A DNA stretch of 51,639 bases from a candidate division WOR-3 bacterium. Lineage in GTDB: Bacteria > Hydrothermota > UBA3072. Below, piece after piece: positions 10,519 through 13,519 of this stretch. The notes beneath the pieces were generated by a model, which saw only the letters and a list, made by a program, of their open reading frames with translations, was not told the origin of the DNA and ran no database searches. Position 1 is the stretch's first letter. Every line of letters begins with the position of its first letter. The stretch is taken from positions 1-51,639 of the forward strand of contig JBDRZZ010000012.1 of NCBI GenBank assembly GCA_039804165.1, read 5' to 3'. The position numbers and the translations under genes were made by a program.

Positions 10519-10584
10519 ATGAAAAAAGTTGTCAGTTATTTAGAAAAGTTTAATTATAATAATTTTCTTTTGAATGTTCTATAA
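10519..10584 (+). CDS. 21-codon mini-ORF with a strong SD, possibly a gene remnant
   Basis: AAAAGGAGGTG lies 5-6 bases before an ATG opening a 21-residue frame (MKKVVSYLEKF...) that ends at 10584, inside the 3' end of the opposing radical SAM gene. The perfect SD and the bacterial-looking start suggest the 5' stub of a gene whose remainder was deleted, or a tiny peptide. No promoter was identified. Low confidence. Confidence 0.2.
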   Translation: MKKVVSYLEKFNYNNFLLNVL

Positions 10585-11338
10585 AACATTTTACTGGGAT
10601 TTTTTTCTGCCAAAGGTAAGCCTTAAGTTGTTTTGAGAAAAATTCCATTTTTTTTCTGCTTTTTAAAAACTCATAACTCTCAGAAAATTTGTTTTTTAAA
10701 ATTTCTCTTAATTCCTCTCCTCCCAAATTGGTATTAAGGATTTCAATCAAATAATAATTTACAAACCCTCTTGTTAAAGAAAGAACCTTTCTAAGTTCTG
10801 TGAGGAGTGGAATAACAGGACTTATAAAACAAAAAGTTTTTATTCCTCTTAAGTGTAATTCTTTAAGGGTTTTAATTCTATTTTCATTTGAAGGGGCATA
10901 AGGTTCAAGTATCTTTCGAACTTCTTCCGAGAAACAGTTTATCGTTAAACCCACTTTTAAGTTTTTGAATTCCTTAAGTAAATCAATATCTCTTAGGATA
11001 AGATCTGATTTTGAGAGAATTGAGAGCTTTATTTCTTTATTCATATTCTCGAGGACTCTTCGGGTAAGTTTTAGTTCTTTTTCAAGAGGTTGATACGGAT
11101 CAGAGACAGAACTCATTGAAACTTCTCCAGATACTTTTTTCTTTACAAGCTCTGGAGCATTTATTTTCACTTCAATCCAACTTCCCCATGGTCCATAATT
11201 TTTCCATTCGCTCATATATTTGGCATAGCAATATATACATTTATGTCCACATCCTACATATTGGTTTATAGTGTATTCTAATTCGGAATTTTTTGTTTTG
11301 GTGTATATAGATTTTGCTTCCCGTTCAATAATTCTCAT
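10550..11338 (-). CDS. Radical SAM protein of the SPL / Rv2578c-like type
   Basis: With a start at 11338 the protein has 262 residues. The radical SAM cluster motif is C30-GHK-C34-IY-C37 (CxxxCxxC). It is followed by SSVSDPYQPLEKELKLTR, typical of the spore-photoproduct-lyase-like / Rv2578c-like group of radical SAM proteins; their reactions are mostly unknown. The frame stays open upstream to 11482, but those 48 residues lie over the microprotein gene in another frame and look non-coding, so the ATG at 11338 is preferred (GAAGG just upstream). It lies 22 bases after the microprotein stop and is probably cotranscribed with it. Confidence 0.75.
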   Translation of the reverse strand: MRIIEREAKSIYTKTKNSELEYTINQYVGCGHKCIYCYAKYMSEWKNYGPWGSWIEVKINAPELVKKKVSGEVSMSSVSDPYQPLEKELKLTRRVLENMNKEIKLSILSKSDLILRDIDLLKEFKNLKVGLTINCFSEEVRKILEPYAPSNENRIKTLKELHLRGIKTFCFISPVIPLLTELRKVLSLTRGFVNYYLIEILNTNLGGEELREILKNKFSESYEFLKSRKKMEFFSKQLKAYLWQKKIPVKCFIEHSKENYYN

Positions 11339-11360
11339 TTCCTTCAACTTATATAAATTT

Positions 11361-11540
11361 TTATTTGTTCTTTCTTCTATCTTTCCCTGAACGTCGATCC
11401 TTCCCTGATCTTCTTTCTGGCCCATTATAATTTGGGTTAGAATTTTGCCTTCGGTCTTTTCCTGATCTTCTATCCTTTCCACTTCTTCTTTCAGGACCTA
11501 CATATCCAGGAGTAAAGATAATTTTTTTACTTTTTTCCAT
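11361..11540 (-). CDS. 59-residue Arg/Lys-rich microprotein with two identical 17-residue repeats
   Basis: ATG at 11538-11540 follows AGGAGG and a promoter at 11558-11586; the stop is at 11361-11363. Residues 15-31 and 40-56 are both GPERRSGKDRRSGKDRR, each preceded by Tyr-x, and each contains two copies of RRSGKD. The 59 residues include 12 Arg and 9 Lys. At DNA level the two repeat copies differ in 10 of 17 codons, and every difference is synonymous (including AGT/TCA for Ser and AGA/CGT for Arg). This shows selection on the protein in this frame. It lies between priA and a radical SAM gene, 22 bases before the latter. ERRxGxDRR-type motifs occur in other bacterial proteins, but I know no assigned function. 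A nucleic-acid-binding role or modification by the neighbouring enzyme is speculation. Confidence 0.8.
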   Translation of the reverse strand: MEKSKKIIFTPGYVGPERRSGKDRRSGKDRRQNSNPNYNGPERRSGKDRRSGKDRRKNK

Positions 11541-11557
11541 TTCTCCTCCTAATTAAA

Positions 11558-11586
11558 AATATATTAATAAAGATAAAGAAAGTCAA
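11558..11586 (-). promoter_or_regulatory. Promoter of the microprotein / radical SAM pair
   Basis: Minus-strand TTGACT (11581-11586), a 17-base spacer, TATATT (11558-11563). It begins 11 bases beyond the priA stop and gives a short leader with a strong SD before the microprotein ATG. Confidence 0.6.
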
Positions 11587-11596
11587 TTTTTGAATT

Positions 11597-13519
11597 TTAT
11601 AGCATATTAAGTGGATCTATTTCAAACGAAATCTTTACTCCTTGAGTTTTATTTTCGTAGAGTTTTCTGAATAGAGTTGGAAGAGTGTATTCTTCTTTTG
11701 CTTTAAGAAGAAGGTGAAAACGAAAATACCCTTCAATTTTTCCTATAGGGCAAGGAGCAGGTCCAAGTAAAATAATCTTTTCTGATTCCTTCAAATTTTT
11801 TATTGTTTCTTTTATTTTAATTGCGGTTTGTTCAGCTTTTTCTATCTTCTTAGATTTAACAACAATTCTTCCTAATTTTACAAAAGGAGGATAATTTGCG
11901 GATTCTCTAAATTTTATTTCTTCTTTGTAAAAATTTAGGTAGTTAAGATCCAAAACATTTTTTATTGCATAATGATTCGGATTGGTACTTTGGATGAGGA
12001 CTTTTCCTTTTACACCTCTTCCTGCCCTTCCTGCTACTTGAAATAAAAGCTGAAATGTCCGTTCCGTTGCTCTATAATCTGGTAGGTCTAAAGCTGTGTC
12101 TGCGGAAAGAACACCAACAAACCCTATATCTGGAAAGTCGAACCCTTTTGTGACCATTTGGGTTCCAAGAAGAATTTGAATTTCTCCTCTTTTCAATTGT
12201 TCATATATTTCTTTATGGGTGTGGGGTCTGCTTATGGAATCAGTATCCATTCTTCTTATCTTATAATTCTTATATCTTTCTTTAATTTCTTCTTCTATTC
12301 TTTCTGTCCCCCAACCAAGATAAGTGATTTTCTCATTACAAATAGGGCAATTTTCAATCTTTTTTTCTCTTTTCCCACAATGATGACAGATTAAGCTATT
12401 TGATATCTTATGGAGGGTTAGGGAAATGTCACAATCACTGCACCTTGCAGCCCATCCACAATTGTAACACTTTCCGTAAGGTGCATACCCCCTTCTATTT
12501 AAGAAAAGAATTACTCTTGAAGGCTTTTCTCCCATAAGAGCTTCTTCTATTCCCTTTTTCATTTCTTCAGAGAAGATTTTTCCTTTTGGATTTACAATTT
12601 TAAGAGAAGGGAAAGTCATTCCTTCCACTCTTTCCGGAAGATGAAGGAGTTCATATTTACCTTTTTCTGCATTATAAAAAGATTCAATAGAGGGAGTTGC
12701 ACTTCCAAGAATCACAGGAAAATTGCCTATTTTACCTCTCATTACCGCTAAATCTCGAGCAGAGAATCTTGGTTTTGGATCTTCTTGATGATAAGATTCC
12801 GAGTGTTCTTCATCCACTATGATTAAACCAAGGTTTTTGAAAGGGCTAAAAACACTCATTCTTGAGCCAACTCCAATTTTCAAATTCCCATTTAAGGCGT
12901 TCATCCAGTATGAATATCTCATACTCTTAGAAGATTTATAATGGTATTCTTCACAGGTTCCAAATCTTTCTCTTATTCTATCGATAACTTGTGGGATAAT
13001 TGAAATCTCTGGAACTAAATATAAGACGCTTTTTCCTTTGTTTATTACTTTTTCCATAACTCTCAAGTAAATTTCAGTTTTGCCGCTTCCAGTGACACCA
13101 AAAAGTAGAAAAACTTTAAATTGTTCATTTTCTACAGCTTCAATTATTTTCTTATAAGCCTCTTTTTGATATGGATTTAATTCTATTTTGCTCTCCTTTT
13201 TTGGATATTCTTTGATTTCTCTTACTCTTTTCATTATGGGAGGAATGCAAAAAGAAAGCACTATTCCAAGAGGGCAGACATAATACATAGAAACCCACTT
13301 GCATAAATTAAATAGGTCTTCTGGTAAATCTATAATTTTTGCCTCAATTTCCTTTGCTCCTTCAAAAGGATTTGCTTCTTCAACGACAACACCTATTAAC
13401 TTTCTGTTTTTGAAAGGAATTTGAACAACACTTCCCTCTTTTAAATCCAAGGTTTCTTGTGCCTTATAAGTAAAAAAGGAAAATTTGTCAATTGGAATGG
13501 ATACTTTATAATATTTCAT
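11597..13519 (-). CDS. priA: Primosomal replication restart helicase PriA
   Basis: A 640-residue superfamily 2 helicase. It has the N-terminal 3'-DNA-binding domain, a Walker A motif GVTGSGKTE near residue 141, a DEEH Walker B near 235, and GSATPS. The PriA zinc-binding region at about 348-400 carries eight cysteines in CxxC/CxxC spacing (CYNC, CSDC, CHHC, CPIC). PriA reloads the replisome at stalled forks. Length and motifs are complete. The start overlaps the upstream helix-hairpin-helix gene by 4 bases. Confidence 0.95.
   Translation of the reverse strand: MKYYKVSIPIDKFSFFTYKAQETLDLKEGSVVQIPFKNRKLIGVVVEEANPFEGAKEIEAKIIDLPEDLFNLCKWVSMYYVCPLGIVLSFCIPPIMKRVREIKEYPKKESKIELNPYQKEAYKKIIEAVENEQFKVFLLFGVTGSGKTEIYLRVMEKVINKGKSVLYLVPEISIIPQVIDRIRERFGTCEEYHYKSSKSMRYSYWMNALNGNLKIGVGSRMSVFSPFKNLGLIIVDEEHSESYHQEDPKPRFSARDLAVMRGKIGNFPVILGSATPSIESFYNAEKGKYELLHLPERVEGMTFPSLKIVNPKGKIFSEEMKKGIEEALMGEKPSRVILFLNRRGYAPYGKCYNCGWAARCSDCDISLTLHKISNSLICHHCGKREKKIENCPICNEKITYLGWGTERIEEEIKERYKNYKIRRMDTDSISRPHTHKEIYEQLKRGEIQILLGTQMVTKGFDFPDIGFVGVLSADTALDLPDYRATERTFQLLFQVAGRAGRGVKGKVLIQSTNPNHYAIKNVLDLNYLNFYKEEIKFRESANYPPFVKLGRIVVKSKKIEKAEQTAIKIKETIKNLKESEKIILLGPAPCPIGKIEGYFRFHLLLKAKEEYTLPTLFRKLYENKTQGVKISFEIDPLNML

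Follow-up and report, generated by a model that had tools for sequence, protein, structure and literature searches.

A free-standing arginine-rich microprotein of a WOR-3 bacterium resembles the c-di-GMP-binding tail of Cle proteins

Introduction

Between priA and a radical SAM protein gene of a WOR-3 bacterium lies a 59-codon open reading frame, translated as MEKSKKIIFTPGYVGPERRSGKDRRSGKDRRQNSNPNYNGPERRSGKDRRSGKDRRKNK (11361-11540, minus strand), in which an arginine-rich stretch of 17 residues occurs twice. The locus raises two questions, whether so short a frame is a real gene and, if it is, what its product binds. We addressed them in the window, that is, the whole stretch of 51,639 nucleotides that was analysed, and in related genomes.

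The repeats bring to mind the ARR, a c-di-GMP-binding tandem of [YF]xGP[DE][RK]R (PMC5677366, eLife 2017). Grafted onto E. coli CheY, the ARR binds c-di-GMP with a Kd of 150 nM and a 2:1 stoichiometry; in CleD, the R156A mutation abolishes binding and R169A weakens it about 5-fold (PMC5677366). ARRs were found in 302 proteins, nearly all of them alphaproteobacterial, 91% being CheY-like and 5% having no known domain (PMC5677366). Receptors for c-di-GMP are hard to predict, as many are not domain-based.

Results

The microprotein gene and its neighbours

The features of the locus are as follows.

11361..11540, minus strand: 59-aa arginine-rich microprotein gene, ATG to stop (ORF; relatives across several phyla; dN/dS)
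11448..11498, minus strand: repeat copy 1, residues 15-31, GPERRSGKDRRSGKDRR (sequence)
11373..11423, minus strand: repeat copy 2, residues 40-56, GPERRSGKDRRSGKDRR, protein identical to copy 1 (sequence)
11544..11549, minus strand: strong Shine-Dalgarno sequence, GGAGGA (sequence)
11558..11586, minus strand: sigma-70-like promoter, TTGACT-17-TATATT (consensus match only, 10/12 bases)
11597..13519, minus strand: priA, upstream neighbour of the microprotein gene (PriA_C, PriA_3primeBD, Zn_ribbon_PriA)
10550..11341, minus strand: radical SAM protein gene, 263 aa (PF04055; start backed by the G001 orthologue), a neighbour not counted in the function

The initial annotation had reported identical repeats separated by 13 silent changes over 10 codons, and recomputation gave the same result: the two GPERRSGKDRRSGKDRR copies differ at 13 nucleotides, which fall in 10 of their 17 codons, and every difference, AGT/TCA and AGA/CGT among them, is synonymous. 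If single changes struck the repeat codons at random, only about 23-27% would be synonymous, which makes such a divergence very unlikely without protein-level selection; with changes taken to be independent and unconstrained, 13 out of 13 has a probability of roughly 5e-9. The dN/dS ratio, proposed in the same annotation as a check, is 0.06-0.15 among same-phylum relatives, and in the comparison with the same-genus copy dS is saturated (pS 0.93, pN 0.22). The Shine-Dalgarno sequence and the promoter-like site, both claimed earlier, sit within the 56-base gap after priA, and the promoter is plausible as a consensus match. Together with the low dN/dS of the relatives, these signals indicate that the ORF is a real gene and, with the silent divergence of the repeats, bear out the previous view of a gene under protein-level selection.

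The neighbours were correctly recognized as priA and a radical SAM gene, since the PriA domains and PF04055 agree with these names. The radical SAM gene is indeed adjacent, but the 22-base gap given for it has to be corrected: 19 bases separate the microprotein gene from the ATG at 11341, and 22 are obtained only when the stop codon is counted. The radical SAM ORF also has a 310-codon version with a GTG start (10550-11482), which overlaps the microprotein gene in another frame. This GTG is 141 bases too early, the orthologue of the sister species (G001) favouring the 263-codon start, and automatic annotation of the longer ORF could swallow the microprotein gene. Elsewhere in the window, the region at about 6.9-8.4 kb contains ORF debris resembling a ribosomal RNA region, and no tRNA or tmRNA gene was found from 1 to 51639.

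Architecture of the protein and comparison with the Cle motif

Three further features, all on the same strand, describe the motif content of the protein.

11484..11504, minus strand: first [YF]xGP[DE][RK]R motif, Y13VGPERR19 (sequence; motif definition PMC5677366)
11409..11429, minus strand: second [YF]xGP[DE][RK]R motif, Y38NGPERR44 (sequence; motif definition PMC5677366; family alignment)
11409..11462, minus strand: ARR-like core, G27KDRR to GPERR44 (alignments; R31-R44 spacing of 13 residues, like CleD R156-R169)

The 59 residues contain six xG[PK][DE]RR hexads. These form two triplets, and a complete YxGPERR opens each triplet. The aromatic residue and the proline of the Cle motif are missing from four hexads, all SGKDRR, and the full YxGPERR copies are 25 residues apart compared with 12-14 in Cle tails; many relatives carry the second YxGPERR only. 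It is the core of the protein, GKDRRQNSNPNYNGPERR, that places R31 and R44 in the same register as R156 and R169 of CleD, within the 12-14 residue spacing of Cle half-sites and with the last arginine conserved; at this register the first half-site (R31) reads RSGKDRR and not YxGPxRR. When 18 relatives belonging to several phyla are aligned, R31 and R44 never change and position 38 holds Y or F; G40 and E42-R44 are conserved, with variation (R/H/Q) at position 43, which is [RK] in the Cle motif. Arg and Asp are abundant throughout the repeats, where the flanking Cle-type Arg (N-terminal) and Asp (C-terminal) are not confidently assignable. In the CleD ARR as present in PDB 6SFT, REWVEAVAYVGPDRRRFNSADYKGPRKRKA, the numbering suggests that R156 and R169, which are 13 residues apart, would correspond to the final Arg of the two half-sites and to no other. 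Almost the same string as GKDRRQNSNPNYNGPERR occurs in some Cle tails of alphaproteobacteria, namely DRRRKANPNYNGPERR (L083/L094) and DRRRKQDENYKGPERR (L142).

The resemblance was quantified with profiles from either side. Against a profile of 25 alphaproteobacterial Cle tails, microproteins excluded, the window protein scores 24.2 bits, a value reached by none of 30,000 full shuffles and by none of 30,000 shuffles in which the arginines were fixed (best 18.9 bits). Part of this significance is due to repetition, because two matches add up in the whole-protein score; taken singly, the best match has 11.9 bits, which 21/50,000 full and 55/50,000 arginine-fixed shuffles attain. With its two exact copies and this score, the protein thus has the tandem organization of a Cle-type ARR. 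Conversely, a profile of 18 microproteins run against 177,635 distinct PDB sequences returned one match with E<1, the CleD entry 6SFT (E=0.025), which we take to be the ARR-c-di-GMP complex, in an alignment spanning DRR...Y.GP..R. A PDB search with the single microprotein sequence gave no match, CleD being found by the family profile only. The E-value would be modest by itself, and its weight comes from this entry being both the sole match and the expected one.

No family was identified when the microprotein and 17 of its relatives were scanned against Pfam and NCBIfam. At 59 aa and with no Pfam domain, the product is an ARR-like peptide and does not qualify as a Cle protein. AlphaFold predicts no fold (pLDDT 62, pTM 0.15), as expected for a peptide ordered by its ligand, and the model suggests that the microprotein is most likely disordered when alone.

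Distribution and co-occurrence with c-di-GMP genes

Proteins of 45-70 residues related to the microprotein are encoded in WOR-3 (Caldifarciminota in the NCBI taxonomy), most likely the phylum of the host, as well as in Chloroflexota, desulfobacterial lineages and others. Stand-alone proteins with related motifs are also known from Aliikangiella and Thioalkalivibrio, which can be cultured. Six GGDEF matches are present in the host genome, the two examined having an intact GGEEF and the RxxD inhibitory site, and there are two MshEN domains; a PilZ domain was not found in this genome. The microprotein is present in 19 of 147 genomes of the phylum, and all 19 have GGDEF, compared with 98/147 overall; none of the 49 phylum genomes without GGDEF has the microprotein (Fisher p=2e-4 by genome and, more weakly, 0.02 by genus). 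Outside the phylum, GGDEF is found in 39 of 40 genomes carrying related motifs. This co-occurrence with diguanylate cyclases is moderate evidence for c-di-GMP as the ligand, because GGDEF is common in bacteria and the genomes are not independent.

Related motifs are also found on, or next to, proteins of c-di-GMP signalling. The motif is fused to PilZ in L055 (more weakly in L049) and adjoins a PilZ gene in L080; a GGDEF-DUF484 gene adjoins it in L047, with homologues near L050 and L063, and a gene with an HD_5 (HD-GYP-like) domain lies two genes upstream in L111, with a homologue in L112. Cle response regulators carry it in L077, L083, L091 and L093. The motif also forms the tail of an RRM protein (L081) and is appended to GyrA, to a nucleotide cyclase and to a FAD oxidoreductase.

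Archaeal occurrences extend the distribution further. Short proteins of small-genome archaea carry the motif, including YxGPERRSGKDRRSG, and in the one archaeal genome examined for GGDEF (L062) this domain is absent; in the phylum of L062, three further genomes among 87 carry similar short proteins. A family of archaeal proteins of 74-144 residues (L179, L180, L183, L182), from a phylum whose one examined genome lacks GGDEF, has YxGPERRSGxxRR at the N-terminus and ERRSGxxRR at the C-terminus.

Discussion

From the motif, its spacing and the company of diguanylate cyclases, we infer that the microprotein is probably a free-standing, intrinsically unstructured c-di-GMP-binding peptide, like the C-terminal ARR of the CheY-like Cle proteins. 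Binding of c-di-GMP, to which the sequence points, was not among the roles weighed in the initial annotation. The two have in common a tandem of [YF]xGP[DE][RK]R in a short peptide, key arginines 13 residues apart with a conserved x-Y-x-GP segment between them, and occurrence in genomes with GGDEF. They differ in that the ARR of Caulobacter CleA-E (PMC5677366; 6SFT) has two half-sites and is attached as a C-terminal tail to a CheY-like receiver domain, whereas the microprotein stands alone, has six hexads in two triplets and is found outside alphaproteobacteria. The ligand would most likely be an intercalated c-di-GMP dimer, bound via arginine-rich half-sites of the [YF]xGP[DE]RR type, and the disordered peptide would wrap such dimers. 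As the spacing of CleD half-sites is kept in GKDRRQNSNPNYNGPERR, more than one ligand dimer might be accommodated per peptide, and the larger number of half-sites may increase capacity or avidity.

Two roles can be envisaged for such a peptide, sequestration or buffering of c-di-GMP, or acquisition of structure on binding followed by contact with a partner. The former is the simplest, because no effector domain is attached and because peptides engineered from CleD lower free c-di-GMP when expressed (PMC11757272); assuming that binding occurs, we consider the chances of a buffering rather than a partner-binding effector role to be about even. These c-di-GMP-sequestering peptides (CSP; Hee et al. 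2020, as summarized in PMC9062693 and PMC11757272) are free peptides of the same motif; as a fusion, one variant inhibits biofilm formation (PMC9062693). They are man-made, and by analogy the microprotein may be their natural, free-standing counterpart, with more repeat units.

The high Arg and Lys content could instead point to an RNA- or DNA-binding peptide, ribosome- or nucleoid-associated, whose repeats are generic basic elements. Short length and high basicity are likewise features of Thx/bS31-like proteins and of other arginine-rich microproteins that belong to the ribosome or bind nucleic acids. In support of this idea, an RRM gene lies directly downstream of the microprotein gene in the sister species (L104), the motif is a tail on an RRM protein (L081) and on a GyrA C-terminal domain (L051), a general nucleic-acid-binding tail would also explain the attachments to a nucleotide cyclase and a FAD oxidoreductase, and archaeal relatives exist where GGDEF was not found (one genome examined). 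However, the residue preceding each RR is nearly always acidic, so that the repeat is not simply basic; the conserved P-x-Y-x-GPERR core and the 13-residue register fit the Cle motif, for which charge is insufficient, as the arginine-fixed shuffles show; and the PDB profile search returned CleD and no nucleic-acid-binding protein. The acidic residue and the YxGP core, together with the lack of a Pfam or NCBIfam match, also set the microprotein apart from Thx/bS31-like proteins. We therefore consider a generic nucleic-acid-binding peptide unlikely.

Binding of some other nucleotide, or of a partner protein, for instance as a docking motif in signalling complexes, also appears unlikely for the microprotein; the Cle ARR would then be a specialised descendant or a convergent form. 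Such a function would account for the presence of the motif on histidine kinases, response regulators, a nucleotide cyclase, TPR and metabolic proteins, and for its archaeal occurrences, but the sole experimentally characterised relative binds c-di-GMP (PMC5677366), and the co-occurrence with GGDEF argues in the same direction. The archaeal motifs, the RRM, GyrA, cyclase and oxidoreductase attachments and the four atypical hexads nevertheless make a broader nucleotide- or RNA-binding role possible.

That the microprotein is a RiPP-like precursor and the substrate of the adjoining radical SAM enzyme would fit two genes 19 bases apart on the same strand. Apart from the host, the order priA-microprotein-radical SAM is seen in the genus's one sister species alone, where (G001, L104) the RRM gene intervenes between the microprotein and radical SAM genes. 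The expectation that the microprotein stays between priA and the radical SAM gene thus fails beyond the genus: relatives in other genera have neighbourhoods unrelated to this locus, no radical SAM partner recurs in the neighbourhoods examined in other genera and phyla, and for the family as a whole these neighbourhoods revealed no operon partner conserved across phyla. As the pairing is confined to the genus, a special tie to the enzyme is unsupported; no separate leader and core are apparent in the protein either, and this reading, largely refuted by synteny, is very improbable. Finally, a spurious ORF devoid of protein function, which the shortness and low complexity of the frame could evoke, is rejected, as the silent divergence of the copies, the dN/dS values and the relatives in many phyla show a protein under selection.

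Returning to a c-di-GMP-binding peptide, a wider proposal is that bacteria of several phyla naturally encode free-standing sponge peptides for c-di-GMP and that the motif is a portable c-di-GMP-sensing tag on unrelated proteins (PilZ proteins, kinases, DNA gyrase, RRM proteins, phage repressors), which we hold to be possible rather than probable. If real, such a class of receptors would have been largely missed, because its members are short, disordered and without a Pfam or NCBIfam model. Literature searches for the repeat strings (e.g. RRSGKDRR, GPERRSG, GPDRRR) and for the phrase 'c-di-GMP sponge' found no paper, and stand-alone, multi-unit ARR-like microproteins across phyla appear to be undescribed in the literature searched. 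If confirmed, they would allow c-di-GMP receptors to be sought across phyla by means of a linear motif, would be a precedent from nature for the engineered c-di-GMP-sequestering peptides, and would assign a function to a class of conserved microproteins overlooked by gene finders and domain libraries.

Several other occurrences of the motif were observed. In Auribacterota, a GyrA C-terminal beta-propeller protein (L051:3-1523) ends with RRSGKDRR...ERRSGKERRSGKDRRSGKK. In Desulfobacterales, two small proteins of the GGRRSG.DRR / HIPERRSGKDRR type are encoded downstream of a comM-like gene (L078, 3466-3615 and 4284-4508; L084, 4971-5114 and 5790-6014), and in WOR-3 a 100-aa arginine-rich protein is encoded directly after a comM-like gene (L111/L112). 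The histidine-kinase-like C-termini of L164 (G001:C24) and L109 carry the motif, EMPTDFHYVDRRSGKERRSSKGRR, and in L109 a response regulator gene directly follows. A plasmid search found none. On viral contigs, proteins resembling XRE-type phage repressors (L170:2482-3210, L172:2566-3180, L173/L174:2425-3102) have the same arginine-rich tails, KDRRSGKDRRQNVHEVDFERRSGLDRR, WDGTERRSGKDRRKS and NDRRSGVERR...HDRRSGHDRR, and could be second-messenger-responsive repressors.
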